This document shows, piece by piece, positions 10,026 through 59,253 of a DNA stretch of 64,000 nt; the stretch's first letter is position 1; every line of letters starts with the position of its first letter. Source of the stretch: Sporomusa termitida. Lineage in GTDB: Bacteria; Bacillota; Negativicutes; Sporomusales; Sporomusaceae. Made by a program: the position numbers and the translations under genes. Location of the stretch: NCBI RefSeq assembly GCF_007641255.1, contig NZ_CP036259.1, forward strand, positions 3,970,501 through 4,034,500, written 5' to 3'. The notes under the pieces are model-generated. The model searched no databases. It was not told where the DNA came from and saw only the letters and a list, made by a program, of their open reading frames with translations.

Positions 10026-12263
10026 TTAAAGATCAATGGTCGTCGACAGTTTGAAGGTACGGCCGCTGCCAAGCGTGAGATAGCCGTCAGAGAAGCAGCC
10101 TGACCAATAATTTTTATCAAGCACGTTTTCTACAGTAAACCGGAAAGCGACCGGTTGGCCGTTGACTTTAGTCACATATCTGGCGCCGACGTCATAGCGG
10201 ATCCAGCTTGGAATTTGCATTGTATTGGCGGAATTACTATATTGCGGGCCGGTATAAACGGCGCGGGTGGACAACGTCAGGCCGGAAACATTGGGCGCAT
10301 CCCATTCGAAGCCCAGATTACTTTGCCATTTTGGTGTGCCAAAAGCTGTGTTGCCGTCATAGGTGCCGTTGGCAGTATGCGTTGTCACACCGCGGAGGAA
10401 GCTCACGCCGCCCAGAATGCGCCAATCTCGGTTGATTTGGCCGAATACGTTCCACTCGACGCCGCGGTTACGCTGCTCTCCGTCCTGTTTATAAGTTGTG
10501 ACACTGGTGCTGCGGTCCGCGATGACGCTTGGTCTGGTAATTTGGAACAAGCTCAGGGTATGGGCATAATCGCCTGCGTCCCATTTTACCCCTGTCTCAA
10601 TCTGTTTCGTTTTGAAGGGGGCAAAGACGTGACCATAATTGCTGGCAGTCGTATCGGTAACGGTGCTGCCTGAACTTAGCCCTTCGATATAGTTTGCATA
10701 TAAAGACACCGGCGCGGCCCACGGTTTGACGACAAGGGCAATTGCCGGGGTGACGGCGCTTTTGTCGTAACGGGCAGTTATCGCGCCGGTGCTGCTGTTG
10801 AAGTTTTTGGTGTTCACCCGTTGATTGCGGACCCCCAGCGTGAGCCGGTATTTATCCTGGCTGAAGGATAAGGTGTCAGTCAGCGCCACACCAGTGAGAT
10901 CAGACTCCGCGACTTTGGACGGCGAACCCGGATCAGCGGCAAAAACGAGAGTGGCCGGATTATAGATATTGGAAGGATATGCGGCGCCTTCCTTGAAAAC
11001 CTGCCCTCTTTCAAGGCTAAGCGAAGTCGCGCTTAAAACGACCTGGTGGCTGACCGCCCCTGTTTGGAAACGGCCGCGCAGCCCCGCCTCGGCCGATACG
11101 ATGTCGGTGTAGCCGGTAGTATAGGTGGTGACGGCGCTATAATTCCCCAGCGCGTCTATGCCTTTTGCATGCGTCGACATCATATAGCCGGAAAAATCGT
11201 AATTTGCTGTTCCCAGACCGGCATAGGCAGTCAGCTTGTCATTAATGTCATATTCGCCGCGCGCCGCCACGCCCTTGTTTTCTATCCAGCCCCAGGTTCC
11301 GGCAAATAAGTTTGTGCTAGGATCGGGGGCTGAGGGAACGGAAGTGATGTCCGTGTTGAAATAGTAATCCGCCAACGTTCCGCCGCTGGAATTTTCTTTG
11401 CTGTAATAGGCATCAAGCGAAGCGCGCCAGCGTTCTCCGCGGTAGTCCAGGCCCACCGCGCCCAGTTCGCGTTTCTTTGACTGCCCGGAGATGTCGGTAT
11501 CGCCATCCCGGTAGACGCCGTTGACCCGTATCCCCCACTCGTTGTTTTGGCCGAAGCGGCGGCCGATATCCAGATGGGCGCCGAGCTGAGAGTCCGATGT
11601 ATAATCCATTGTGAAACGGGTCAGCGGCTCCTCCGCAGCGCGCTTGGGAACAAGATTGATCGTTCCGCCCAGGGAGCCGTTGGGCGGCATACCATAGAGT
11701 AAGGCGCTCGGCCCTCTTAGCAATTCCACCCGTTCAAGGAATTCTGTCGGCACATGGCTTATAGGCGCCAGGCCAAACATGCCGTCAAAGCCCAAATCGT
11801 AGGAATTAACGGTAAAACCGCGAATTCTGAAATTTTCTATTGTGTGGCCGTTGGAAGTTGCATCACGCACCGACGCATCATTGGACAAAACCTCGGAAAT
11901 AGTGCGGGCTTGCCGATTTTCAATCATTTGCGCCGTATAACTTGTAATGCTGAAGGGAGCATTCATGATGTCAACGTTGCCCAGCAATCCAAGCCGCGCT
12001 CCTCTAGCCACCTGACCGCCGGCATAGACCGACGGCAGATCGCGGCTGCGCATGGCGGTCACTTCAATCATTTCCAGGGTGAATTCCCGCTTGCCGGCGG
12101 TTGTTTCCGCGGCAGAGGCCGCTTGGGGATCGGTCTGGCCGGTAGCGGTAACTGCTCCCGCCGTATCCTCGGCAGACGCAATTGCCGGCGTGTGCCAGAA
12201 CAGGCTGCTGCCGATCAGGGCGTAAAGCAGCCGTTTTCTGGCAAGGGACAAATTGTTCTTCAT
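10026..12263 (-). CDS. TonB-dependent siderophore receptor
   Basis: A 745-residue outer-membrane receptor importing ferric siderophores with TonB energy. Residues 1-31 are a signal peptide ending ASA. The linker is followed by a TonB-box-like stretch (FTLEMIEVTAMRSR), a plug domain with IENFRIRGFTVNSYDLGFDG and VELLRGPSALLYGMPPNGSLGG (about residues 140-200), then a 22-strand barrel with the siderophore-receptor ending (VDVGAR-like RYDVGARYVTKV, NVLDKNYWSGCF, RTFKLSTTIDL). A single-gene unit on the minus strand with a Fur box in front and a divergent AraC regulator beyond. This pattern suggests iron-repressed, siderophore-induced expression. No ABC permease is adjacent, so the ligand is unknown. 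Confidence 0.92.
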   Translation of the reverse strand: MKNNLSLARKRLLYALIGSSLFWHTPAIASAEDTAGAVTATGQTDPQAASAAETTAGKREFTLEMIEVTAMRSRDLPSVYAGGQVARGARLGLLGNVDIMNAPFSITSYTAQMIENRQARTISEVLSNDASVRDATSNGHTIENFRIRGFTVNSYDLGFDGMFGLAPISHVPTEFLERVELLRGPSALLYGMPPNGSLGGTINLVPKRAAEEPLTRFTMDYTSDSQLGAHLDIGRRFGQNNEWGIRVNGVYRDGDTDISGQSKKRELGAVGLDYRGERWRASLDAYYSKENSSGGTLADYYFNTDITSVPSAPDPSTNLFAGTWGWIENKGVAARGEYDINDKLTAYAGLGTANYDFSGYMMSTHAKGIDALGNYSAVTTYTTGYTDIVSAEAGLRGRFQTGAVSHQVVLSATSLSLERGQVFKEGAAYPSNIYNPATLVFAADPGSPSKVAESDLTGVALTDTLSFSQDKYRLTLGVRNQRVNTKNFNSSTGAITARYDKSAVTPAIALVVKPWAAPVSLYANYIEGLSSGSTVTDTTASNYGHVFAPFKTKQIETGVKWDAGDYAHTLSLFQITRPSVIADRSTSVTTYKQDGEQRNRGVEWNVFGQINRDWRILGGVSFLRGVTTHTANGTYDGNTAFGTPKWQSNLGFEWDAPNVSGLTLSTRAVYTGPQYSNSANTMQIPSWIRYDVGARYVTKVNGQPVAFRFTVENVLDKNYWSGCFSDGYLTLGSGRTFKLSTTIDL

Positions 12264-12325
12264 GTTGTCAACTCCTCGTATAATAAGTTGTAATTTTTCT
12301 TAATTTCAGCCAGAAAGGTGGTGTA

Positions 12326-12345
12326 TTGATAATAATTATCATTAA
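12326..12345. promoter_or_regulatory. Fur box upstream of the siderophore receptor
   Basis: TTGATAATAATTATCATTAA is a near-perfect palindrome matching the Fur consensus GATAATGATAATCATTATC. It lies about 65 bases before the receptor start. Confidence 0.8.
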
Positions 12346-12466
12346 TTTGTTTTTATCAGTATAACAAACTGCAAAGCACAGGCAAATAGAGGTTTTTCCA
12401 ATGATCCTTGATATTTTTCAAAATTAGCGATAAATAAATTTGATAATTACTGGTAATAGTGATAGA

Positions 12467-12491
12467 ATGATAGTGATAATTATTATCATTT
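12467..12491. promoter_or_regulatory. Second Fur box, on the AraC-regulator side
   Basis: AATGATAGTGATAATTATTATCATT-like inverted repeat with GATAAT/ATTATC half-sites, about 190 bases before the AraC-type gene. With the box at 12326 it makes the divergent region a double Fur target. Confidence 0.72.
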
Positions 12492-12615: not shown

Positions 12616-12681
12616 GGCAGGGGAGCATTATAAACAATAGCGGTCTTTACAGACTTGTTGCCGCTTAGGAGGATACGAAAA

Positions 12682-13497
12682 ATGAAGGTGGATATCAACG
12701 ATCTATCCGGCTATTTTGCCAAAATAAACTTTAGCATAGTTGATATAAGACGAGCGGTTATCGAACCTGGAAGTAAACTTTTCGGCATAACGACTTCACC
12801 ATTTCCAGGGATGATTTTTCCGCTGCGCGGCCGGTCAAGAATGTCTTTTGACGGCGTTCCCTATGACATGGAGCCTGGCAAAGTATTCCACGGCGGGCCG
12901 AGTATGCCCTTGGATAAAGAGGTTCTGGGACAGTCAAATTGGGATTATATGGTCGTACATTACCAGGTGCACGGCAATACCCGGGGGACGTTTCCCTATG
13001 CATTGTCGCATTATGAACTCAGCCCGGGCTATAATCCCCGGATAAACGACACGCTGCACCGGATGTACCATATCTGCAAAACACCGGGTAATCTGCCGGC
13101 GCTGAAAATTAAATCCCTGTTTTTCATCATTTTGGATGAAATTCTAACTTTCGTCAATTGTAACGACAGCCGCGAACTGGTGGCAGAAGCCGCTGAATAT
13201 ATGAAGAATTACCATATGGAACCGCTCACCATACCGGAATTAGCCAGGCAATATGACCTGACCAGCAAACAGTTTGCCTATTTGTTTCAAAAGCATACGG
13301 GTATGAGTCCGAATAAATTTCTGATTGAGTACCGAATGCGGCGGGCGAAAGAACTGCTCTGCACCACAACCTTCTCTGTCGCGAAAATTGCCGAGTACGT
13401 GGGTTATTCCGATCCTTATTATTTCAGCCTGTTATTCAAGAAGCGAATGGGCTTGTCTCCCAGTACGCTGCAGGCATTTAAAAAAATAAAAATTTGA
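12682..13497 (+). CDS. AraC-family transcriptional regulator (iron/siderophore context)
   Basis: A 271-residue regulator. The N-terminal part is a cupin-like sensing domain (GMIFPLRGRSRMSFDGVPYDMEPGKVFHG), the C-terminal part a double helix-turn-helix (about residues 175-270) with AraC hallmarks IPELARQYDLTSKQFAYLFQKHTGMSP and FSVAKIAEYVGYSDPYYFSLLFKKRMGLSP. It starts at ATG 12682 behind TAGGAGG. The long upstream leader has paired segments. Divergent from the siderophore receptor with two Fur boxes in between, it most likely activates that receptor when the cognate siderophore is present, like PchR/YbtA-type regulators. The ligand is not deducible from sequence. Confidence 0.87.
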   Translation: MKVDINDLSGYFAKINFSIVDIRRAVIEPGSKLFGITTSPFPGMIFPLRGRSRMSFDGVPYDMEPGKVFHGGPSMPLDKEVLGQSNWDYMVVHYQVHGNTRGTFPYALSHYELSPGYNPRINDTLHRMYHICKTPGNLPALKIKSLFFIILDEILTFVNCNDSRELVAEAAEYMKNYHMEPLTIPELARQYDLTSKQFAYLFQKHTGMSPNKFLIEYRMRRAKELLCTTTFSVAKIAEYVGYSDPYYFSLLFKKRMGLSPSTLQAFKKIKI

Positions 13498-19092: not shown

Positions 19093-19115
19093 GATAGCGA
19101 TAATCATTATCATCT
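19093..19115. promoter_or_regulatory. Fur box
   Basis: GATAGCGATAATCATTATCATCT contains GATAATCATTATC, a perfect central palindrome matching the Fur consensus. It lies 22 bases before the start of the 208-residue ORF. Confidence 0.82.
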
Positions 19116-47491: not shown

Positions 47492-48571
47492 TCATGGCCG
47501 GACCGGCGGTTTCCCGCTGATGATTCTGCTTGCCTCTGCTGCCGACAGATCATAATGTAAAAAAGTCCGGTAAAAATAACGGGTTTCCTGAACGATGTCA
47601 ATATCCTGAAACTTATCTGGATGCAAAACCTTGGCCGCCCACTGAATTTGCAGCGCTACCTCCGCCCCGTACCGATCCCAGAAAAAAGCCCCCTCCGGAT
47701 TAATATGCACATTCCCTGTTTGTACCGCCTGCAAGCGCCGCCACTTTTCATCCTGCAGGATGTTGTTCAGAGCTTTTGCTCCGTCCTCCACTCCGTTCAA
47801 GGCCAGTGCCGTATTGCCAAATATAATCACGTCAGGATTCCAGGTTATCAGCTGCTCCATCGCTACTTCACCGCCGGTATCGGCGGCATTGATTCCCCCG
47901 GCAACCCTTATCCAGGCATCAATAATTGTATCTTTTCCGTCTACCATTAATGGTGCAAGCCTGGTAATATGGATCACTTTCGGTTTTTGTTCCCGGGGAA
48001 TCCCCGCAGTTATCCCGGTTATCCGGTCGAGGTTGTGATCCAGATAAGCGATATATTTTTCCGCTCTCGGCTTTGCTTCCCCGCCCAGAATGACACCGGT
48101 TAGCCGGAAGCATTCTTTCAAGCTGTCAAAATCGTTAAACATCAATTGCACAACCGGGATCTTTACATCAGCTATTTTGCGGGCGCTTTTATTATTCAGC
48201 GGCGTAAACACAATGTCCGGTTTAGCGGCCATAAGGGTTTCCAGATTTACACCGCTAGCGTCAAAAGCCGTGACCGCCTGGTTCATTTGCGGATTAACGA
48301 CCTTCATCCAGGGCCGTTGCGCCGCCGCCGTCGTCGTCGCAACGATTTTATCCCCCGCTCCCAGCATGCACACCACCTCATTGTGAGCAGGCCAGGCATC
48401 TGCGATCCGTTGAATCCGGGCCGGGATTGCCACTGTGGCTCCACTGGCATCGGTAATCGTGATCTGGTTGGGATTTGCTGCCGGTTGAGCCTTAAAAGCG
48501 TTCTGGCAGCCGGCTAGGAAAATGAATAAGCTAAAAATGCCGCCCCATATGATATATTTTCCTGTTTTCAT
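47492..48571 (-). CDS. Periplasmic binding lipoprotein of a metal-chelate ABC transporter
   Basis: A 359-residue Peripla_BP_2 (BtuF/FecB-type) protein with a lipobox in LFIFLAGCQNAF (Cys about 22). Motifs: ITDASGATVAIPARIQRIAD near residue 40 and NPDVIIFGNTALAL. The C-terminal part is long. It hands the iron- or cobalt-containing ligand to the FecCD permease. In operon with receptor and transporter, 42 bases after the receptor gene. Confidence 0.9.
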   Translation of the reverse strand: MKTGKYIIWGGIFSLFIFLAGCQNAFKAQPAANPNQITITDASGATVAIPARIQRIADAWPAHNEVVCMLGAGDKIVATTTAAAQRPWMKVVNPQMNQAVTAFDASGVNLETLMAAKPDIVFTPLNNKSARKIADVKIPVVQLMFNDFDSLKECFRLTGVILGGEAKPRAEKYIAYLDHNLDRITGITAGIPREQKPKVIHITRLAPLMVDGKDTIIDAWIRVAGGINAADTGGEVAMEQLITWNPDVIIFGNTALALNGVEDGAKALNNILQDEKWRRLQAVQTGNVHINPEGAFFWDRYGAEVALQIQWAAKVLHPDKFQDIDIVQETRYFYRTFLHYDLSAAEASRIISGKPPVRP

Positions 48572-48613
48572 CGCATCACCCCCTGTTCTTGCCTGCCCGG
48601 CACCTGCTCGGTG

Positions 48614-50617
48614 TTAAAACTTCTTACTGACCTCTATCCCGTATTCGGCGCCGGCATCATAATAGTTCATGCCTCTGCCATAACGCCGGTCGGTAATATT
48701 GCGCCCGTACAGGGTAAGCTTGGTCGTTCTATCCAGGTCCTTGCTGATGTTGGCGTCGATGGTGGTATAGCCGCCTAACTTAGTGGCATCTCCCATCGAA
48801 CTTGCAAACCGGCTGAGGTACAGGAGGCTGATATTGGCCGCGATATCGGCCTGCCTGTAGTTCAGCGCCAGATTGTAGCTGCTATGCGGTATATAGCTGT
48901 CATCCAGGGCGTCGCTCGAAGTAAAATAAGAATACCCGGCTTTATAGCCGAGGGGGCCGGACAAACGGCCATGCACCGACAGTTCCAGGCCCTTGCGCGT
49001 CAGATCCCTTCCGGTATAGGTCGTTACATCCATGCCAGTCTCCGCATCGTAATACGTTTTTCCCGTAGAAACCCGGGCATCGTTGATATCATATAAAAAT
49101 GCCGTCAGCGAGGCATTGAGAGCCTTGTTATAGCTGGCCGTAACGCCTGTTTCATATTTATAACGCACTTCCGCATCAAGCAGCTCGTTGTTTTCCGTAA
49201 GCAGATACCTGCCCGCGGGCTGACGCGAGTAGGAGAAACGCGAAGACAGCTTATAGACCGGGTCCAGCTGATAAGCGGCTCCCAGGGAAAAGCTAACGGC
49301 TTCTTTCTCCCAAAATTCCCCGTATGTCGCGTCGTATTGGATGTTGCTGCCGCCGCCCGCGAAATATTTGGCGACGCCCTTGGTAATATGTTTTCTGTCC
49401 AGCCGCGCCCCGGTATCCAGCGTCAGTTTATCATTGACCCGCCGCTCCCCGTACAAATAGTAGCCGTACAGTTCCTCCTGGCGTTCATAGCCGGCCTGCC
49501 CTGCAACCCCGGTCGGCGAATGCCACCACATGGCCTGGACGCCGAATTTCAGCGTATCCCGGCCAAAATTCAAGGTATGCGCCAGGTTTACTTCGCGCAG
49601 GTATTCATTTTCTTCCCAGTGCGATTTTATTGCCGGCGAGTAGACCAGCGCAATCCGGCTGGACCGCACCGAGCTATAGCCGAAGCTGAAGGTTGTCGTG
49701 CGGTTTTCATCCCATAGTTTCGCCGCATTCGTTGTAAACAGCGTCGTATTAATGGGATCCCATTTGCCTAGGCTGCTGGTGCGATTCAGGTAGCTGCCGT
49801 CTTCGTTAAACAATACCTGCTGGCCACTCCAGCCATTGTTGACAATCAGGGTCATATCGGCAAACCAGTCTTCGCCTTTATCCCCGGCCTTTAGAAAATA
49901 CGTATCAAAATTTCGGCCGTTAAACCAGCCGGACCTACCGTCGCTCCGGTCTTTGGCGTATCCCAGCGCATAATAAGCGCTGTCACCGGGTTTATCGCCA
50001 TGCAGGAGGCTGAATTTTTCCGTATCAAAAGTACCGTAACTCAGCTTGGCTTTATCGACAGGCCCGGTTACTTTCAGGGTTTCTATGATAATGAAACCCT
50101 GGCTGGGAGAGCCTCCCTTGACAAAATTGGTGGCAAAATTGGCAATAGGACCCAGTGTCAGGATGGAGGCGTCCCGGACAAGGGTGATGGATTCGATCAG
50201 GTCAACCGGCAGATTTGCCAAAATACGCGAGGCCTGCGTGTCGGGCAAATAGACCCCGTCAATGATGATCCCGATATTATCGCCGCCGCGCGCCTGGACT
50301 TTGTAATAGCCCTTTTGACCCCAGCGCGTACCTACAATCCCGGTGCCGCGTTCAAGTATTTCCAGCACATCCTTGGGATGCATGGCCTCAATATCTTCCC
50401 GGGTAATGACTTCCGTCGCCGCCTTGCTGCTCTCCGGAATCGCCAAACGGCTGTATACCGGTGTTTCCGCCTCTGCCTTTTGGGCCTTGACCACGACTGT
50501 TGACATTTCCGGGTCTTTAGCGGCAGCTGATTCCTCCGCCCAGGCAGGCACTGCCGCCCCGACCAGAGTAGACAAAACAAGCGCAGCCACTGTTTTTCCC
50601 ATCTTACTGTTTTTCAC
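48614..50617 (-). CDS. TonB-dependent outer-membrane receptor
   Basis: A 667-residue receptor with signal peptide 1-27 ending AWA, a TonB-box-like MSTVVVKAQKAEAE at about 39-52, and a plug with ITREDIEAMHPKDVLEILER and GGDNIGIIIDGVYLPDTQAS. The plug is unusual in lacking the tight R-G-P-x-S-x-L-Y-G motif; here it is ITLVRDASILTLGPIANFAT. The barrel ends in ...GAEYGIEVSKKF with the usual terminal Phe. Between ATPase and binding-protein genes of one operon, it supplies the same ligand to the ABC transporter. The ligand class (siderophore, corrinoid or other metal chelate) is open. Confidence 0.9.
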   Translation of the reverse strand: MKNSKMGKTVAALVLSTLVGAAVPAWAEESAAAKDPEMSTVVVKAQKAEAETPVYSRLAIPESSKAATEVITREDIEAMHPKDVLEILERGTGIVGTRWGQKGYYKVQARGGDNIGIIIDGVYLPDTQASRILANLPVDLIESITLVRDASILTLGPIANFATNFVKGGSPSQGFIIIETLKVTGPVDKAKLSYGTFDTEKFSLLHGDKPGDSAYYALGYAKDRSDGRSGWFNGRNFDTYFLKAGDKGEDWFADMTLIVNNGWSGQQVLFNEDGSYLNRTSSLGKWDPINTTLFTTNAAKLWDENRTTTFSFGYSSVRSSRIALVYSPAIKSHWEENEYLREVNLAHTLNFGRDTLKFGVQAMWWHSPTGVAGQAGYERQEELYGYYLYGERRVNDKLTLDTGARLDRKHITKGVAKYFAGGGSNIQYDATYGEFWEKEAVSFSLGAAYQLDPVYKLSSRFSYSRQPAGRYLLTENNELLDAEVRYKYETGVTASYNKALNASLTAFLYDINDARVSTGKTYYDAETGMDVTTYTGRDLTRKGLELSVHGRLSGPLGYKAGYSYFTSSDALDDSYIPHSSYNLALNYRQADIAANISLLYLSRFASSMGDATKLGGYTTIDANISKDLDRTTKLTLYGRNITDRRYGRGMNYYDAGAEYGIEVSKKF

Positions 50618-50647
50618 ACCGCTTCCCTCCTGTTATATAATATATCT

Positions 50648-51463
50648 TTATCCCGTCTTTTCCGCTGTGGAAGCTGTCTGGGTAGACAACGGGATGCAAG
50701 CAGACGCAACCTGTCCATCACGTAACTGCAACTGAACAATCTGCACATTCACACCATAGGTATCTTGTAAATATTGTTCGGTAATCACCTGCCGGGGCGC
50801 GCCGGTTGTAAGACTGCCGTTCTTGCCTATGGCCGCCACCTTCGACCCATACCGCAGCGCATGGTTGGGATAATGGGTGGTCATTAGCACGCCGATGCCG
50901 GATTTGGTGACCAGGTCGCGGATATAGTCCAGGACCCGTATCTGGTTGCCAAAGTCCAGACTGGCAGTAGGCTCATCCATAATCAGAAATTCCGGCTGCT
51001 GCGCCAAGGCCCTGGCAATCAATACCAATTGCCGTTCACCGCCGCTGATACGGGTATAGATGCTGCTGCGTAAATAACCTATTGATAGTGTCTCCAGGGC
51101 CTGGCCGGCTATTTTCATATCGGCAGGCGACGGCGAGCCAAACAGTCCCAGGCGGGCGCTCCGGCCCATCGCGACCACATCAAGCACGGTAAACGGAAAG
51201 GGCGGTGTGTGGGCCTGGGGAACATAACCGATTTTTGCCGCCAGCTGTGGCTGGGACCAGTTGGCAATATTTTTTCCATTTAGCAATATTTTCCCGGACT
51301 GAATTTTCAACAACCGTAAAATAGTTTTAAACAACGTGGTTTTCCCCACGCCGTTAGGCCCCAGCAAACACATGAAATCGCCGGAATGAATTTCAAAGGA
51401 TACCCCGCTAAGGACCGTTTGGGCCCCATAGCCACAGGCAATATTGTCGACTGTAAGGATCAT
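50648..51463 (-). CDS. ABC ATPase of metal-chelate transporter (FecE/BtuD type)
   Basis: A 271-residue ATPase: Walker A LLGPNGVGKTTLFKTIL, signature SGGERQLVLIARAL, Walker B FLIMDEPTASLD, H-loop TTHYPNHA. In this family the pair with a FecCD permease transports siderophores, haem or B12. It starts 21 bases after the permease stop and its stop is 30 bases before the receptor start. Confidence 0.93.
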   Translation of the reverse strand: MILTVDNIACGYGAQTVLSGVSFEIHSGDFMCLLGPNGVGKTTLFKTILRLLKIQSGKILLNGKNIANWSQPQLAAKIGYVPQAHTPPFPFTVLDVVAMGRSARLGLFGSPSPADMKIAGQALETLSIGYLRSSIYTRISGGERQLVLIARALAQQPEFLIMDEPTASLDFGNQIRVLDYIRDLVTKSGIGVLMTTHYPNHALRYGSKVAAIGKNGSLTTGAPRQVITEQYLQDTYGVNVQIVQLQLRDGQVASACIPLSTQTASTAEKTG

Positions 51464-51484
51464 GCTGCCACTCCTTGCCGGCTG

Positions 51485-52516
51485 TTAAGCCCAGCCTTTG
51501 CGTGTATGTAAGAGGAGATAAAGGAAAAACGGCGCTCCGATTATGGAGGTCAGTATACCCAAAGGGACCTCCACTGCAAACATCGTCCGCGCTAAATCAT
51601 CTACCAGTAACATAAATATACTCCCCATAACGATGGCAACCGGGAGTAAAATCTTATAATTAGGCCCCACCAGCAGCCGGGACAAATGGGGCACCACCAG
51701 GCCCACCAGACCGATGACGCCGCTAATGGCCACGGCCGACGCCGTCACCATAGTGGCGCAGACCACAACAATAATCCGCAGCCGGACGGTATTTATCCCT
51801 AAGGCTTTGGCCTCTTCGTCGCCAAAGGACATCACATTCAAATTCCAGCGCAGCAGTGTCAGCACAAACAGTCCGGCCACAATCGGAACAGCGGCCAGAT
51901 ACACATCACGGTTATTAACAGCAGCCAGGCTGCCCATCAGCCAATAGGTAATAGCCGGCAGTGCGTCGTTGGGGTCGGCCACATACTTAATCAAGGAAAC
52001 AAATGAGGTAAACAACGTGCCGATAATAATGCCGGCCAGGATCATGATCAGAATCGTCTCACCTTTTTTTCCCAGCCAGAGGGTAATCAGGTAGGTTGCC
52101 GTCACGGCCAGTAAGCCAAAAGCAAAGGCCGCCAATTGAATGCCAACAGCATTGAGAGACAACAGAATTGCCAGGGCGGCACCAAAACTGGCACCGGCCG
52201 TCACTCCTAAAATTCCGGGGGAAACCATTGGATTGCGGAACATCCCCTGGTATGCGGCCCCGGAGGCGGATAAGGCTGCCCCCACCAGAATAGCGGCTGT
52301 AATTCTCGGCAACCTGATCTTCAGCATGATAATTTCCATATCCTCTGTCCAAAAAGGTGTCAGGTGAATGATTTTTGACAGAAGAATCCCCAACGCAATA
52401 TCCGGGGCAATCGGATAGCGTCCTATCAGGAAAGACAAAAAAAATATAGCGACTAACACCATAATTAATAGGGAAAACTTTATTGACGCCACGGACTGCT
52501 CAGTTATTTTTGCCAT
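51485..52516 (-). CDS. FecCD-family permease of metal-chelate transporter
   Basis: A 343-residue permease with about ten membrane segments and the family motifs RLPRITAAILVGAALSASGAAYQGMFRNPM-type (in part) near residue 70 and GVIGLVGLVVPHLSRLLVG near 265. Forms a homodimer with two copies of the ATPase. Same operon as tonB, ATPase and receptor. Start ATG at 52516 lies 126 bases after the tonB stop. Confidence 0.93.
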   Translation of the reverse strand: MAKITEQSVASIKFSLLIMVLVAIFFLSFLIGRYPIAPDIALGILLSKIIHLTPFWTEDMEIIMLKIRLPRITAAILVGAALSASGAAYQGMFRNPMVSPGILGVTAGASFGAALAILLSLNAVGIQLAAFAFGLLAVTATYLITLWLGKKGETILIMILAGIIIGTLFTSFVSLIKYVADPNDALPAITYWLMGSLAAVNNRDVYLAAVPIVAGLFVLTLLRWNLNVMSFGDEEAKALGINTVRLRIIVVVCATMVTASAVAISGVIGLVGLVVPHLSRLLVGPNYKILLPVAIVMGSIFMLLVDDLARTMFAVEVPLGILTSIIGAPFFLYLLLHTRKGWA

Positions 52517-52642
52517 GTTATCCCCTTCAATCCCCTACAACCGTTATGGACATACACCGGCGTCATCACAGTTGTTCAACTATCCTGACCGTTTGGCTGT
52601 TCATATCCGCGCCCATACCGGGCTGCCTGCTGTCTTTCTTCA

Positions 52643-53335
52643 TTATTCGAGTTGAAAAACAACAGGTACAACAACCCAGGCCGGAACCGGCCTCCCACCT
52701 TGATAAGCCGGGCTGAACCGCCAGCGGCGCAGGCCGCTGACAGCCGACTGATCCACGCTGCGATAACCCGAACTCTGTACAATTGCCATATCGCCGACAG
52801 TTCCTTTTTCCAGGACTAAAACCCGGACACGTACCGTTCCCTCCCAGCCGCGCAGCCTGGCTTCTTCTGGATAGGGCGGCGGCGGACCTTCAATCACATA
52901 GGGAAGCCGGCCGGCCCCGCCATATGGTGAACTCCCCTGGGCGTCATGGCCGTGGCCGCTGTCAGACTGGCTGGCCGAACCAGTGCCATTGCCGGCCTGG
53001 CCTGCTTTTTCCTGCACCGGCATTTTTTCCTTTACAGCTTTAGGAGCAGCAGTGGGAGCAGTATCGGCAAAAACCGGAGCGGACTCTGGCGCAAGCCGGC
53101 TGATAGCAACTGGTGCAGGCCGGCTCGGCCGCGGATTGGGCGCGGCCGCTTGTACCGGCGCATCAGCGGGATCGTCCTCCACGTTATATTCACCCAATTC
53201 CACTTCTATCGGCAGCAGCGGTTCCGCCAAAGCCTCCGGTTTATCCCGCAAATAAAAAAAACTAATGCCGGCAACAAGCATCAGATGGACAGTTGCTGAC
53301 AGGCAAAGTGCGATTCCCCAGCGTTTTTGCGTCAT
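52643..53335 (-). CDS. tonB: TonB energy-transducing protein
   Basis: A 230-residue TonB: short cytosolic start, membrane segment (GIALCLSATVHLMLVAGISF, residues about 6-25), a Pro/Ala-rich periplasmic linker (about 50-150), and the C-terminal TonB domain with PPYPEEARLRGWEGTVRVRVLV and SGYRSVDQSAVSGLRRWRFSPA. It links inner-membrane proton force to the receptors. The ATG at 53335 was chosen because it overlaps the stop of a short ORF (ATGA), meaning translational coupling. No exbB/exbD is in this window, so TonB must use partners encoded elsewhere. Upstream 53345-53618 is otherwise AT-rich. Confidence 0.9.
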   Translation of the reverse strand: MTQKRWGIALCLSATVHLMLVAGISFFYLRDKPEALAEPLLPIEVELGEYNVEDDPADAPVQAAAPNPRPSRPAPVAISRLAPESAPVFADTAPTAAPKAVKEKMPVQEKAGQAGNGTGSASQSDSGHGHDAQGSSPYGGAGRLPYVIEGPPPPYPEEARLRGWEGTVRVRVLVLEKGTVGDMAIVQSSGYRSVDQSAVSGLRRWRFSPAYQGGRPVPAWVVVPVVFQLE

Positions 53336-53421
53336 TGCAGCCACTTTTTATTTTTTACAGCCATTACTATTGGAACAATGTCAGCCGTGTTACTTATCAT
53401 CGCCACTTCAGGTATCGGCAT
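53332..53421 (-). CDS. 29-codon ORF translationally coupled to tonB
   Basis: The ATG at 53421 follows GCGGAGGTGGGG and encodes MPIPEVAMISNTADIVPIVM then AVKNKKWLQ, with the TGA overlapping the tonB ATG. The strong ribosome site and overlap suggest it is translated. No family is recognised. It may work as a leader/coupling peptide rather than have its own function. Confidence 0.5.
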   Translation of the reverse strand: MPIPEVAMISNTADIVPIVMAVKNKKWLQ

Positions 53422-54225: not shown

Positions 54226-54771
54226 CTACTCAGGCTGCGGTACTTCCATAACATCGAATAATGCTGCGGCCGGCCTGGACAGGAGAAATCCGGCAATTTC
54301 CTCTTTGAGCAGGGCCAGCCGCGTTGCCTCGGCGGCAGTCAGGGTGCCATCGTGGGTTTTATAGGCCAGGGTGATAAATTCCGCCGGCAGCAGCCCGTGT
54401 TTTAGCGAGTATATACGTTGCCTGTGATGATACGTAATTTCAAAATAATAGCGGCCGCCACAGCCGTCGGCGGCATCGGGCGCCGCTTTGGTACTGGCCG
54501 TCTGCGGATCAACAAGCATCGCGGCCCGCGATTTCGCCCGGGTGACCATTTCCAAACCATCAATAATCCCCGGACCCTGAACGCCAATCAGAATAGCAAA
54601 TTTCTCCCGCGCCGGGGGCTCAGCCGGCGAAAGCTGGCTGAAGGCCAGCTCCAGCAGCTTAAAGGCCAGCGCCACCCCCCCGATAAACTCCCGCCCGTGA
54701 TATTTGACCATATCCTGAAAGGTAATGGCAAGCACATCCTGGTGGTCTTTAACTAACAATACCGGCTCCAT
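54226..54771 (-). CDS. FmdE-domain protein
   Basis: A 181-residue protein resembling the FmdE family (named for a formylmethanofuran dehydrogenase operon gene, although many members are outside methanogens). Seen: MVKYHGREFIGGVALAFKLL (residues about 21-40, with HG...GG), ILIGVQGPGIIDGLEMVTRA, and a C-terminal helical part; it has a single Cys (CGGRYY) and lacks the Zn ribbon of longer members. Role unknown. Last gene of a minus-strand group with the hydrogenase-like gene, the ECF-S-like gene and a TonB receptor. Confidence 0.72.
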   Translation of the reverse strand: MEPVLLVKDHQDVLAITFQDMVKYHGREFIGGVALAFKLLELAFSQLSPAEPPAREKFAILIGVQGPGIIDGLEMVTRAKSRAAMLVDPQTASTKAAPDAADGCGGRYYFEITYHHRQRIYSLKHGLLPAEFITLAYKTHDGTLTAAEATRLALLKEEIAGFLLSRPAAALFDVMEVPQPE

Positions 54772-54835
54772 AGCTCCTCCTTTACGCTCATTCTATTAAA
54801 TAGATGCTAACCTGGGTTGCAGCAAGCCGCACCGG

Positions 54836-55900
54836 TTAGATCCGGATAAAATCCGCTACATTTAATTCGCGGTCAAACCTGCTAAAAATGGCTGCCGCCG
54901 TTTGCGCCTGATTTTGATCAGGCTGCCGGCCGCCTGGCGTTTCTATATTGCTCAGATAAGCGCCCACTCCGGTCCCGCGGTCACAGCCGCCCGCACAGTT
55001 ATAGACTTCGGTCAGCGTCGGCAAAGGATATTTTTTTGCCAGGGCCTGCTGGTAGTCGGCCAGAAACGGGTAAACTGAGCCGGTGCCGCTGATTTTTTGA
55101 TAGCTCCCTGGCGGCAGATGGCCGGCCAGGCATTCGCAAATTCCGCCATAAGCACCGAGCGTCTGGCCGTTGCCTTCACCGGCATCAGTAAAATCCACCG
55201 GGTCATAGCGGTTCAGGTCAATGCCGGCCGCGTGGAGGTACTGTTGCAGGCGACCGATGGTGACACTGTATTCGATCCCGTACGGCTGCGGCCGGTTCAG
55301 GCGGATCTCGCCGCGTTTGGCAATACAGGGCGATAAGAAAGCCAGCTGCTCCCGGACGGCGGCATATTTTTTCAGATAGATAGCCGCACACTGGAGCGGG
55401 CTATAGACCGGCAATAAATGGGCCTGTAAGCGGGGGGCGTGTTTAATAATATAATTGTTGACGGCCGCACAGGGCGAGGAAATGTAGGGCGTGCCCCGAT
55501 TGCGCCGCAGGATGTGGACATAGGCCCAGATCGTGATGTCAGCGCGCAGCAGGACATTGTAAAAGGCGGTAACCCCCAGGGTTTGCAAATAGCCGAACAG
55601 TCGCCGGTAAGCGGGAAAATGCCGTTGAACTGCCGGGGCCACCAGCAGGGCTAAGGGTTTACCGGCAGTTAATTCAGCCAGAAAGGCCTGAATATCATCC
55701 TGGTAATCAACCGCCTGATGCGGGCACCGCCGGAAACAGGCGCCGCAGGTAATGCAGTCCTGGCTGACAATCGGCTGTACCGACAAACAGCCGGGCCGGC
55801 TGCGGCCGCTGCTGAGCGGGCAGGCCTCGAGACAAAGCCGGCAGGTGCGGCACCGGTGGCCGGCAAGCGTGATTTCCGTCTGCCGCTGCGGCCGGGTCAT
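54836..55900 (-). CDS. [FeFe]-hydrogenase-like protein with two 4Fe-4S motifs
   Basis: A 354-residue protein. Two ferredoxin motifs (CRTCRLCLEACP and CITCGACFRRCP, residues about 17-28 and 49-60) precede an H-cluster-like domain. Its three signature loops are altered: SSPCAAV (instead of TSCCP; the first Cys is Pro), LSPCIAKRGEI and VYNCAGGCDRGTGVG. The four cluster-binding Cys are thus kept, but the Cys that relays protons is lost, as in sensory/low-activity groups. So it is probably not a main hydrogen-turnover enzyme. ATG 55900 overlaps the ECF-S-like stop (ATGA coupling); an earlier ATG at 55954 lies within that gene. Confidence 0.75.
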   Translation of the reverse strand: MTRPQRQTEITLAGHRCRTCRLCLEACPLSSGRSRPGCLSVQPIVSQDCITCGACFRRCPHQAVDYQDDIQAFLAELTAGKPLALLVAPAVQRHFPAYRRLFGYLQTLGVTAFYNVLLRADITIWAYVHILRRNRGTPYISSPCAAVNNYIIKHAPRLQAHLLPVYSPLQCAAIYLKKYAAVREQLAFLSPCIAKRGEIRLNRPQPYGIEYSVTIGRLQQYLHAAGIDLNRYDPVDFTDAGEGNGQTLGAYGGICECLAGHLPPGSYQKISGTGSVYPFLADYQQALAKKYPLPTLTEVYNCAGGCDRGTGVGAYLSNIETPGGRQPDQNQAQTAAAIFSRFDRELNVADFIRI

Positions 55901-56418
55901 AGCCCGGCTCGCCGCCCGTTGCCGCCCTGCCGTCTTGCTAATACCACAAAACATATGATTCCTCCTGTGACGCCGGTGATAAGCTGAGGCCAGCTCAGCA
56001 TCATTTTGATCATGACTGCCAGGTTCGCCGGTATATTGACGAAGGTTAACAGCCAGGCCACGGCCACATACAGGCCGGCCATTTTAAGCCCGGCCGCCGC
56101 CGCAACCGCCAGCCAGCGATTGACCGGCAGCAGCACTTTATAACCGGCAATATAGAAGATATTGGCGGCAATCACCGGGATAATCAATACCGGCACCGGC
56201 AGGGCCTGCTGCAGACAGGCAATAACGGGGGCCGCAAGCCCCAGCAGCAGGGCCGCCTGCCAGCCGGCGGTTTCCACCGCCGCCAGCAGGCAGGCATTGA
56301 CGGCACTGCCGATAACAAACATGGAGACAAAGGCCGGCACCGGCAGGAACAGGCGCAGGGACTGAAATATAAACATCAGCGCCAATAGCAAGGCGGCTCT
56401 TGTCATAGTGCGATACAT
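55897..56418 (-). CDS. ECF transporter S-component-like membrane protein
   Basis: A 173-residue protein, almost wholly hydrophobic with five to six membrane segments, starting MYRTMTRAALLLALMFIFQS. Size and the small-residue-rich helices (GSAVNACLLAAVETAGWQAA, with its Pro-rich loop near LPVPVLIIP) resemble substrate-binding S units of ECF-type vitamin/metal importers. No ECF ATPase or T unit is adjacent, so it would share them or act otherwise. Located between the receptor gene and the hydrogenase-like gene, overlapping the latter. Confidence 0.6.
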   Translation of the reverse strand: MYRTMTRAALLLALMFIFQSLRLFLPVPAFVSMFVIGSAVNACLLAAVETAGWQAALLLGLAAPVIACLQQALPVPVLIIPVIAANIFYIAGYKVLLPVNRWLAVAAAAGLKMAGLYVAVAWLLTFVNIPANLAVMIKMMLSWPQLITGVTGGIICFVVLARRQGGNGRRAGL

Positions 56419-56469
56419 GGTATCCTCCTGTTTCAGTGATACTTACGCCGGGTTACCCCGGCCGGCTGC

Positions 56470-58419
56470 TTAGAATTTCAGCCGGATTTCACTGTATACA
56501 AAGGCCCCCTGCAGGGACAGGTCCTCATCTTTCTTGTTGAGCAGGTTTTCCACCCCGACGCTGAAGGTGTAATTGGGGGTTAGCGCTTTTTCCAGGTTTA
56601 GGTTCCACAGGGAATAGGACTTATTCTTGCTGGCACCCGCACCGGCATCATACAGAAAATCGCCATAAAATTCGCACCAGAGACTGGCCCGGACCGAGTC
56701 GTGATCATCATAGGCCAGGCGGGAGGCCAGCTTATGGCGGGCCCGGTTTGTCAGCCGTGAATTGTTCTGGTCATCGGTGGCATCCAGGTTGGTATAATTG
56801 GCTGTCCACGCAAGGGTCGCCGACAAGGGATAGCTCAGCTCGGCCTCCACCCCCTGCAGGGTGGCCTTGTCGATATTTTGATAGGTAACTTGACTGCTGG
56901 ACAGCCAGTCTTCTTCAATCATATTGTCAAGCTTGTTGACAAAATAGGTCAGCTTGCCGGTAGCCTTGCCCCAGTCCTGCTCCAGTGAGAGCTCATAGGA
57001 ATTCGACTTTTCGGACCGGAGCTGATCGTTGCCAATTAAGGTTACAAAATCATCATTGCGTTTCACCGATGAGCTGATATAAAGCTGATTAGGGGTGGGA
57101 GTGCGGAAGCCCTTGGCAACGTTAAGCTTAAGCCGCGATTCCCCGCTGGCCTCGTAGGTGAGGCCCAGCTTGGGGCTGAGATTGCTTTCAAATCGATTGC
57201 TGTCGTCATAGCGGAGGGAGGAAACAGCCAGCAGCTTGGGCGACACCTGCCACTGGTCCTGAATATATAACGCGGAATAATCGAGATCAATGCCCGAACC
57301 TGTGAGAACCTTGCCGCCATGGTTCACAGAAAATATTTTCTGACCGGTTTTGACTGCGGTCCCGCGGAATTTTTCCGGCCGGTATTCACCGCCGTAGGTC
57401 AGGATATGCCGGTCTCCGGCCGCCCGGGTCAGGCGGGCTTCAAAACCGGGCAGGGTGCGATGAGAGTCGCCAAAATTCATGAACTGTCCGGATGCGGCAT
57501 TATAGATATCACTTTTCTTATAATACTCGGATAAATAGGCCCGCAGAAAAACACTGTTGGTGGCCGTCTCCTGTTTGTTGTAGCTCAGTGAATAATCGTA
57601 GCGCTTATTCTGGTCATGAATTCTCATTCTGGTGTTTCCCGCCGGCGTTTCTTTATAAGCATACTCCTGCGTATCCTCACTCATATAGGCCGCGGTCAGG
57701 GTAATGGTTTCGTCTTCTGTCAGCCGGTAATCCACGCTGGTGCTGATATTCTCCCGCTCGCCATACGGCGCATAGGTAGTCCCGTTGCTTTTGAAAGAGG
57801 CGTTATTTTCTAAGCGGGAGCCGGATAGGGTCACCCCGGTTTTGCCCTGCAGCCCCGAATCATAGGTAAAATGATAGCGGTCTTTCCCGCCCCGGTCGCC
57901 GCGGCTGTTGGCTCCGTGGCCCAGGCTGGCACTGAAGGCCGGTGCGGCTGCCCGCTTAGTGATAATATTGACCACGCCGCCCATTGCATCGGTGCCGTAC
58001 AGGGAGCTGACAGGCCCGCGCACAATCTCAATCCGCTCCACATTCGCCAGCGCGATCCGTTCCAGTTCATAGCTCTGGTCAATCTCCGAGGAAATCCGTT
58101 TGCCGTCAATGAGGATCATTGAGAACCACGACTCAAACCCCCGGATGGAAACGGCATCGCGGCCGGTTGAGCGGATCATGCTGACACCGGCGGCCGTACT
58201 GATAATATCTTTTAGCGTGTGCGCCCCCCGGGCATTAATATCCTCCCGGGTAATCACCTCAACAGAGGCCGGTACTGTTTTTTTCTTCATATCGGTCTTG
58301 GTTGCCGTAACCACGACCTCCTCCAGGGCAAATTCCTCAGGGTCCACCGCCTGCGCATAGGTAGGGGCTGCGGAAAATGCTAAGGCAGTCAAGGCTACAA
58401 TGGCTGTTTTTTTCATCAT
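56470..58419 (-). CDS. TonB-dependent receptor (BtuB/CirA-like)
   Basis: A 649-residue receptor with signal peptide 1-24 (ending TYAQA-like), a TonB box LEEVVVTATKTDMK (residues about 33-46), a plug with VEVITREDINARGAHTLKDI and IVRGPVSSLYGTDAMGGVVN (typical R-G-P-x-S-x-L-Y-G), and a barrel ending SEIRLKF. The length and start resemble BtuB/CirA-type receptors for corrinoids, haem or catechols. Expressed from the divergent region shared with a Crp/Fnr regulator, probably as first gene of the group to 54226. Confidence 0.9.
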   Translation of the reverse strand: MMKKTAIVALTALAFSAAPTYAQAVDPEEFALEEVVVTATKTDMKKKTVPASVEVITREDINARGAHTLKDIISTAAGVSMIRSTGRDAVSIRGFESWFSMILIDGKRISSEIDQSYELERIALANVERIEIVRGPVSSLYGTDAMGGVVNIITKRAAAPAFSASLGHGANSRGDRGGKDRYHFTYDSGLQGKTGVTLSGSRLENNASFKSNGTTYAPYGERENISTSVDYRLTEDETITLTAAYMSEDTQEYAYKETPAGNTRMRIHDQNKRYDYSLSYNKQETATNSVFLRAYLSEYYKKSDIYNAASGQFMNFGDSHRTLPGFEARLTRAAGDRHILTYGGEYRPEKFRGTAVKTGQKIFSVNHGGKVLTGSGIDLDYSALYIQDQWQVSPKLLAVSSLRYDDSNRFESNLSPKLGLTYEASGESRLKLNVAKGFRTPTPNQLYISSSVKRNDDFVTLIGNDQLRSEKSNSYELSLEQDWGKATGKLTYFVNKLDNMIEEDWLSSSQVTYQNIDKATLQGVEAELSYPLSATLAWTANYTNLDATDDQNNSRLTNRARHKLASRLAYDDHDSVRASLWCEFYGDFLYDAGAGASKNKSYSLWNLNLEKALTPNYTFSVGVENLLNKKDEDLSLQGAFVYSEIRLKF

Positions 58420-58470
58420 GTCTCCTCCTCGTATACATCAGCATCGCTTGAATAAAAACCTCAATGAACG

Positions 58471-58491
58471 ATAATGAAAACCTTTATCATT
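58471..58491. promoter_or_regulatory. Fur-like palindrome upstream of the TonB receptor
   Basis: GATAATGAAAACCTTTATCAT approximates the Fur consensus (GATAATG...ATTATC type) with a disturbed centre. It lies about 60 bases before the receptor start. Confidence 0.45.
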
Positions 58492-58529
58492 TGTGTTTAG
58501 GTGTATTATAATTAAATTAAAAAATAAGT

Positions 58530-58549
58530 TGTGTATCCCAGGTTACACA
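58530..58549. promoter_or_regulatory. Crp/Fnr-type operator candidate
   Basis: TGTGTATCCCAGGTTACACA is a palindrome (TGTGTA / TACACA with 8-base centre), the spacing used by Crp/Fnr proteins. It is between the divergent receptor and regulator genes, 21 bases before the regulator's start, and could allow autoregulation. Confidence 0.6.
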
Positions 58550-58569
58550 CATTGGAGATGGAGCTAAAA

Positions 58570-59253
58570 ATGGAGAATTTTTTCCCGGCGATCGCCAGTT
58601 GCCCGCTGTTTAAAAACTGCAGCCGCTCGGACCTGGAGCGGTTTCTGGAACAGGCCGGCTACAAAATCGGCAATTATAGAAAAAACCAGTTCATTTTCAG
58701 AATGGACCAGCCGATCACCGATGTGGGGATTATCCTCAAAGGCAGTGTCGAGGTGCAGAAGATCTTCCCGTCAGGCAAGGTTGTTAACCTGATCTGTAAG
58801 GAAAAAGGCGAATTATTCGCCGAAGGCACGATATTCTCCAGCCTGCCGGCCTATCCGTGCCAGGTCATAGCCCGGGCCACCACGGACGTTATGCTGCTTC
58901 CCAAACAATATCTGATCAGGGCCCTGGCTGACAACAGCGTGCTGCTGGCCAATTTTCTGGCCCTTATGGCCGACAAGCTTGTTTTTTTGAACAAAAAAAT
59001 TGAGCTGTTGTCCTATTGCTCAATTCAAAGCAAAATTGCTTATTCGTTAGTGCATTGTATTGCCACCGCCGGCAATGCCGGCGTCATCAAGCTGCCGTAT
59101 ACGCAAAAAGCGTGGGCCGAGCATTTGAATGTGTCGCGCCCGTCCCTGTGCCGCGAGCTGAAAAACCTGTGCCAGGCCAAGATTCTCCTGGCCGACAAAG
59201 GAACAATCACCATTTTGCGGCAGGACAAACTAGAGGCACTGCTAAATGAATAA
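58570..59253 (+). CDS. Crp/Fnr-family transcriptional regulator
   Basis: A 227-residue protein. An N-terminal cyclic-nucleotide-binding fold (residues about 10-125) with ITDVGIILKGSVEVQKIFPSG and the roll segment EKGELFAEGTIFSS, a dimer helix, and a C-terminal winged helix (about 150-220) with AWAEHLNVSRPSLCRELKNL. It lacks the Cys cluster of FNR, so oxygen sensing by Fe-S is unlikely. ATG 58570 has GGAGC upstream. Divergent from the TonB receptor with a palindromic operator between; likely controls it in response to an unknown ligand (YeiL/HcpR-like small effectors are possible). Confidence 0.85.
   Translation: MENFFPAIASCPLFKNCSRSDLERFLEQAGYKIGNYRKNQFIFRMDQPITDVGIILKGSVEVQKIFPSGKVVNLICKEKGELFAEGTIFSSLPAYPCQVIARATTDVMLLPKQYLIRALADNSVLLANFLALMADKLVFLNKKIELLSYCSIQSKIAYSLVHCIATAGNAGVIKLPYTQKAWAEHLNVSRPSLCRELKNLCQAKILLADKGTITILRQDKLEALLNE

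Follow-up and report, generated by a model that had tools for sequence, protein, structure and literature searches.

A Conserved Negativicutes Gene Cluster Joining a TonB-Dependent Receptor and a Predicted ECF S-Component to an [FeFe]-Hydrogenase-Like Protein and a Predicted FmdE-Fold Protein

Introduction

Three described kinds of protein or transporter come closest to a gene cluster located at 54226-58419 in a 64,000-nucleotide stretch of Sporomusa termitida DNA (contig NZ_CP036259.1, positions 3,970,501 to 4,034,500; this whole stretch is referred to below as the window). First, there are the sensory [FeFe]-hydrogenases of groups C and D, such as TmHydS and TamHydS. Cys299 is reported not to be conserved in these two groups, replacement of Met353 by Ser or Thr is typical of group D, and TamHydS of group D still turns over H2, at low rates (PMC8163306). 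Second, there is LhaSTA of Staphylococcus lugdunensis, an energy-coupling factor (ECF) transporter for heme that has a Fur box and is used against iron limitation (PMC7299338). Third, there is the FmdE family (PF02663), a methane-enzyme family with the structures 2glz and 2gvi.

The hydrogenase-like protein of the window cluster belongs to a set of short proteins and resembles the sensory hydrogenases in its four cluster cysteines, in the absence of Cys299, in a Ser at the place of Met353, in the N-terminal ferredoxin-type cysteines that most of the short proteins have, and in its position in a sister clade. It differs from them in having neither the Cx2Cx4Cx16C domain nor a signalling domain and in being encoded within an uptake operon. 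The likeness to LhaSTA is that of an ECF-type transporter with a Fur-box-like site, but the predicted S-component gene of the window follows that of a TonB receptor, has no T and A genes with it, and is joined to genes for hydrogenase-like and FmdE-like partners. The last of these partners agrees with the FmdE family in predicted fold and in a collinear profile match, whereas it lies below detection by Pfam and has lost both the conserved Cys and the C-terminal Cys pairs. No description of this gene set was found in a literature search that covered titles and the openings of abstracts, most subscription papers being outside reach.

Gene Cluster and Co-occurrence

The cluster consists of a minus-strand operon of four genes with a divergent gene of the Crp/Fnr type upstream. 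The genes and promoter elements are:

54226 to 54771, minus strand: predicted FmdE-fold protein without the metal-site cysteines of FmdE, 181 amino acids (aa), from fold and profile comparison
54836 to 55954, minus strand: [FeFe]-hydrogenase-like protein, 372 aa, from Pfam, a preceding AGGAGG and an N-terminus kept in relatives
55897 to 56418, minus strand: ECF S-component-like membrane protein, 173 aa, six helices, from the predicted fold
56470 to 58419, minus strand: TonB-dependent outer-membrane receptor, 649 aa (Pfam Plug 1.1e-25, TonB_dep_Rec_b-barrel 3.5e-48)
58470 to 58488, minus strand: Fur-box-like palindrome GATAAAGGTTTTCATTATC, 16 of 19 on the better strand against GATAATGATAATCATTATC
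58505 to 58510, minus strand: predicted -10 hexamer TATAAT, aligned with TATAAT in 11 of 11 promoters
58532 to 58547, strand not assigned: Crp-type palindrome TGTAACCTGGGATACA, centre at about -41.5
58531 to 59253, plus strand: divergent Crp/Fnr-family regulator (Pfam cNMP_binding and HTH_Crp_2)

A previous sequence-only reading of this DNA, made by a model from the letters and open reading frames, had described four minus-strand genes here. Gene calls and Pfam matches bear this out, and the four-gene group is real and co-conserved. In 380 genomes of the class Negativicutes a profile of the FmdE-like protein found 13 places in 12 genomes, while a profile of the short hydrogenase-like protein gave 11 proteins with at least 519 bits, the next match being a long protein at 347 bits. 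The same 11 genomes carry the short hydrogenase-like gene and the core FmdE-like gene, and the twelfth FmdE-like genome, G026, is of the ATP-binding cassette (ABC) type treated below. When each locus was read, all five genes including the divergent regulator were present in 11 of 11 clusters (records L051, L049, and L052 were taken as the loci of G126, G127, and G133). The sequence-only reading had named co-occurrence of the families across Negativicutes as the way to check the group and lack of co-conservation in relatives as evidence against it; the finding of the genes in the same 11 of 380 genomes answers this in its favour and rules out an accidental neighbourhood. Mere inheritance of the neighbourhood is also less likely because gene order differs in G003, G057, and G133, where the receptor gene comes last. 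The spread of the cluster is patchy, with 3 carriers among 9 genomes of the own genus, and its anaerobic hosts include Pelosinus fermentans JBW45, P. propionicus DSM 13327, and Propionispora sp. 2/2-37; the 11 carrier genomes are related and hence not independent.

The sequence-only reading had also proposed coupling of the hydrogenase-like gene through an ATGA at 55897-55900, a start at 55900 giving a protein of 354 aa. This ATGA is unlikely to be the start or to serve as a coupling, because ATG 55954 has AGGAGG in front and matches the start place in relatives; from there the gene overlaps the S-component-like gene by 58 base pairs (bp). The regulator likely starts at Met14 of its reading frame (about 58570), which is invariant in six relatives, rather than at 58531.

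Promoter Region

The Fur-box-like site had been overlooked in the sequence-only reading. It is present in 11 of 11 promoters with 15-17 of 19 matches to the Fur consensus, and in a control set of 415 upstream regions, taken from 31 other loci, no score reaches 14 of 19. All 11 promoters further have GTAnC-N4-GnTAC at 29 nt from TATAAT, which itself lies 22-23 nt from the Fur-like palindrome. With the transcription start inferred from the -10 hexamer, the Crp-type palindrome would be centred near -41.5, a predicted class II activator position, and the earlier proposal of a Crp/Fnr-controlled region gains from this placement as a prediction of control. The Fur-box-like site in turn points to iron, by which the "cofactor or metal" that had been suggested is narrowed to an iron-linked compound. 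Rfam gave no match anywhere in the window, riboswitches included.

The genome of S. termitida has six matches to TGTANC-N4-GNTACA against two for the reversed pattern. As a marker of a regulon the palindrome was rejected, as none of the five other sites could be placed in an evident promoter belonging to a related operon; the region around one of the five holds a paralogue of the S-component at 0.9 kb from the site.

The Hydrogenase-Like Protein

Pfam Fe_hyd_lg_C matches the protein with 79.7 bits (cut-off 22.1; 3.5e-22), and its layout is that of two ferredoxin-type clusters and an H-domain. Among 12 short relatives of 328-380 aa the H-cluster cysteines C162, C210, C320, and C324 are kept in 12 of 12, as are Lys213 and Glu216. 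In the alignment Pro161, which is Pro in all 12, takes the place of the proton-relay Cys299 at the start of the Cys pair of TSCCP, and Ser stands where CpI has Met353; Cys299 and Met353 are numbered as in CpI (PMC8163306). The catalytic group A model TIGR02512 reaches 83.6 bits against a cut-off of 405.95, and Cys299 is missing here too. The four cluster cysteines and SSPCA in place of TSCCP had both been seen correctly in the sequence-only reading, whereas its view of SSPCA as an odd alteration does not hold: the ten long HydS proteins of this study have QPCP at that place, and Cys299 is not conserved in groups C and D (PMC8163306), so that SSPCA is typical of sensory groups and not a unique alteration.

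A tree with long branches and seven open forks gathers the 12 short proteins in a single clade (100/99) and unites this clade with the ten long HydS (99/99), separate from the remaining sequences. The C-terminal Cx2Cx4Cx16C cluster motif of HydS is absent from the alignment of the window protein, which ends earlier. The signalling part of the HydS C-terminus is likewise missing from the short proteins, and Pfam found no output or PAS domain in the hydrogenase-like protein. On these sequence comparisons the protein is classed as a truncated sister of sensory HydS. Nine of the 12 retain all eight ferredoxin-type cysteines, whereas in G003, G057, and G133 some or most of these are missing. HydG is above its cut-off in 14 of 15 carrier genomes, all except G707, and the full H-cluster can therefore be made in those 14.

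By eye, the long HydS at L031:6826-8739 and those of L037-L043 have a chemoreceptor-type signalling end, and those of L044 and L045 have other output ends. Judged by these sequences, sensory hydrogenases of this group may feed several signalling routes.

The FmdE-Like Protein

The sequence-only reading had named the 181-aa protein FmdE. Pfam and NCBIfam gave no FmdE match for it at E<=1, but fold and profile comparisons agree with the name. AlphaFold2 models of this protein and of the 173-aa membrane protein were made with the window protein and seven relatives, and the 181-aa model has a predicted local distance difference test (pLDDT) score of 74. Its top three Foldseek matches are the FmdE-like structures 2glz and 2gvi (4e-4 to 2glz), and VIA gives Z-scores of 10.1 to 2glz and 9.2 to 2gvi with the next row at 4.2. 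When the family was compared with six canonical FmdE proteins by hhalign the match was 81.7% and collinear, with YHGR at the place of FHGH, and a divergent relative, L068, reaches 19.6 bits against PF02663 (E 0.001; cut-off 22.9). The six canonical proteins share invariant cysteines, whereas no Cys is conserved in 12 FmdE-like relatives, and the C-terminal Cys pairs are absent. As modelled, the protein is an FmdE-fold protein, while by the Pfam criterion it is not a member of the family.

The Membrane Protein and the Receptor

The name "ECF-S" given earlier to the 173-aa protein finds no backing in family libraries, as neither Pfam nor NCBIfam has a match for it, but the predicted fold agrees. 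The model (pLDDT 81) has S components as all its top six Foldseek matches, with weak E-values of 0.05 at best. The best VIA score is a Z of 15.8 to TmRibU, and the first 17 rows (Z 9.1 to 15.8; next row 6.1) are ECF-type transporters or S-components, counting as such the rows titled just "transporter" or "transition metal transporter". An AxxxA motif in helix 1 is a feature of ECF S-components, and Ala9-LLL-Ala13 is found in eight of eight alignment rows, with Ser at position 9 in L032. A six-helix S-component fold is supported by the model. Five matches to PF02361, the EcfT family, are above cut-off in the own genome. Of 150 genomes of the class that were searched, 115 have the S-component family, with a paralogue in the own genome at L134:4512-5012; the copies tested had no Pfam match, and those that were read often adjoin a small protein of 101-125 aa.

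The receptor is 47-71% identical to eight relatives in an alignment, and in L049 it appears as two open reading frames. It reached no NCBIfam equivalog cut-off, the best being that of TonB-B12 (202 bits against 599.7), and NCBIfam models assign it no substrate.

Relatives With ABC Importers

In 398 genomes of the wider phylum three more genomes with the FmdE-like protein were found besides the own one. All 16 FmdE-like loci adjoin importer genes, and a full or minimal H-domain protein is present in 14 of 16. Five of these loci, the ones outside the 11 clusters, adjoin an ABC importer instead. G637 has a short hydrogenase-like gene and an FmdE-like gene followed by the importer, while in G003 (a second locus), G026, G566, and G707 a divergent FmdE-like gene adjoins an importer of the SsuABC type; G707 lies on a cut contig, with the binding protein alone visible of the importer. 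These relatives use binding proteins of the SsuA/NMT1 type. Three of the five carry a full or minimal hydrogenase-like protein. G003 and G566 have a protein of about 222 aa that exceeds the Fe_hyd_lg_C cut-off (29.4 and 45.9 bits) and keeps the RCP/TPC/CxxGC motifs of a minimal H-domain, and in G707 neither such a protein nor HydG was above cut-off. Fur-like scores before these operons are 16 (L068), 17 (L069), 17 (L076), and 14 (L075, weak) of 19, a strong box thus being present in three of the four loci with a visible promoter (that of G707 is cut). The recurrence of the hydrogenase-like and FmdE-like part with another importer suggests that an imported compound is processed in the cytoplasm.

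The minimal H-domain proteins at L068:12635-13306 and L076:4026-4691 have four candidate cluster cysteines and no ferredoxin domain, and their genes lie in ABC importer operons with a Fur-like box. A search for such proteins in 299 genomes gave mostly ordinary hydrogenases, and their origin is unsettled because they sit on a very long branch of the tree. Upstream of the FmdE-like/ABC operon of L069, the protein at 12851-13459 looks by eye like an NADPH-dependent FMN reductase and could be a substitute reductase where the H-domain gene is missing. The SAO organometal system was considered and rejected, as the SaoA and SaoX models match the ABC parts far under cut-off.

Receptor/S-Component Clusters With a Methyltransferase

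Three loci have a TonB receptor, an S-component, and an O-methyltransferase without a hydrogenase-like or FmdE-like gene:

L172, 9281 to 12886: receptor/S-component/Methyltransf_2 cluster
L173, 6451 to 10039: receptor/S-component/Methyltransf_2 cluster
L174, 6509 to 10048: receptor/S-component/Methyltransf_2 cluster

Their receptors are 47-52% and their S-components 48-51% identical to those of the window, while a methyltransferase takes the place of the hydrogenase-like/FmdE-like pair. We know of no name for loci of this type. The best Fur-like scores in the 220 bp before the methyltransferase genes of L172, L173, and L174 are 13, 10, and 11 of 19. Because these scores are low, the iron signal appears to follow the cytoplasmic pair and not the receptor and S-component, three loci being few. 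The heme-receptor model TIGR01785 is the best match for the receptors of L172 and L173, the methyltransferases at these loci weakly resemble BchU, and a MarR gene lies near the clusters of L172 and L173. An idea of radical-SAM heme degradation next to L172 was dropped, the 494-aa protein in question being a RecD2-like helicase.

Discussion

Our tentative reading, to which we give somewhat short of an even chance, is that the cluster is an uptake and processing system induced by iron starvation. Fur-Fe2+ would block transcription and the divergent Crp/Fnr protein would activate it. At low iron the receptor would bring an iron-bearing organic compound into the periplasm, candidates being tetrapyrroles, chelates, and products of siderophore breakdown, and the S-component, using a shared EcfT/EcfA module, would pass this compound on to the cytoplasm. 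In that compartment the hydrogenase-like protein may pair with the FmdE-like one, the iron-sulfur protein giving a low-potential reductive step or sensing the result and the FmdE-fold protein binding or cleaving the organic ligand. The pair can be combined with another importer, as relatives have an FmdE-like protein, in some cases together with a full or minimal H-domain protein, next to an SsuABC-type importer with a Fur-like site. The nutrient uptake route joined to a redox or sensing protein that the sequence-only reading had in mind fits this gene set.

Several points weigh against iron-starvation uptake. NCBIfam has no equivalog that the receptor fits, and models for cobalamin, heme, and catecholate receptors score alike on it. 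The Fur sites are predicted from sequence matches, with L075 at just 14 of 19. In G026 the FmdE-like/ABC operon lacks a neighbouring H-domain protein, a role in electron transfer is weakened by the depleted ferredoxin cysteines of 3 of 12 relatives, and the FmdE-like protein has neither a conserved cysteine nor an assigned active site. Finally, a protein with 4Fe-4S and H-clusters would be a costly and odd product for a Fur-repressed gene under iron starvation.

An alternative that we consider unlikely is that the hydrogenase-like protein is a cytoplasmic sensor and not an enzyme, its H-domain reading iron, CO, H2, or redox state and adjusting uptake, with the FmdE-like protein or the Crp/Fnr regulator as a possible link. 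The closest relatives in the tree are indeed long HydS, the changes of Cys299 to Pro and Met353 to Ser are as reported for sensory group D (PMC8163306), and the H-site does not vary among the members, whereas some of them have lost ferredoxin cysteines. However, the protein lacks a DNA-binding domain as well as the output domains and the C-terminal Cys motif that HydS has, and the ABC-type loci L068, L069, and L075 have no match to the Crp regulator.

With a similarly low probability, heme or another tetrapyrrole might be imported as an iron source and opened or stripped anaerobically by the cytoplasmic pair. TIGR01785 is among the top matches of the window receptor (196 bits, under the cut-off of 316.85), and the best matches of the L172 and L173 receptors and the BchU-like methyltransferases point the same way, but BtuB and CirA-type models score about equally. 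The receptor has no invariant His in the stretch 439-470, which corresponds by its motif to the heme-ligand region, and none of the cluster genes was recognised as a known one for heme degradation. Uptake of heme by an ECF transporter does have a precedent (PMC7299338). Least probable, and improbable in itself, is that the cargo is a vitamin-like compound needed for iron-sparing metabolism when iron is scarce and not an iron source: vitamins are the cargo of most ECF S-components, the riboflavin carrier TmRibU comes nearest in fold, and the ABC-type relatives use SsuA/NMT1-type binding proteins, but S-component folds are common to many substrates, so that the TmRibU match says little, and the window holds no riboswitch that was found.

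Within the reading as iron-starvation uptake, it is possible, if doubtful, that an H-cluster-type domain descended from HydS and a cysteine-free FmdE-fold partner have been recruited to act in the cytoplasm on an imported iron compound as an interchangeable iron-starvation module, served by a TonB/ECF or an ABC importer. If so, no member of the hydrogenase family with a part in iron acquisition instead of hydrogen metabolism has, to our knowledge, been described before. The defined, co-inherited gene set ties a hydrogenase-family protein to predicted iron-responsive uptake and predicts induction at low iron, and it suggests a role to look for in two families that current libraries detect poorly, the S-component family and the cysteine-free FmdE-fold family.

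Other Fur-Like Sites and a Neighbouring Cluster

Further Fur-like sites in the window, with scores of 15-17 of 19, lie at 12322-12487 and at 19093-19111, one of them in the gap between a receptor gene at 10026-12263 and a divergent gene at 12655. The neighbouring cluster at 47492-53344 encodes a binding protein, a receptor, an ATPase, a permease, and TonB. The best Fur-like score before its tonB gene is 11 of 19, and as no riboswitch was found either, its cargo may not be iron.

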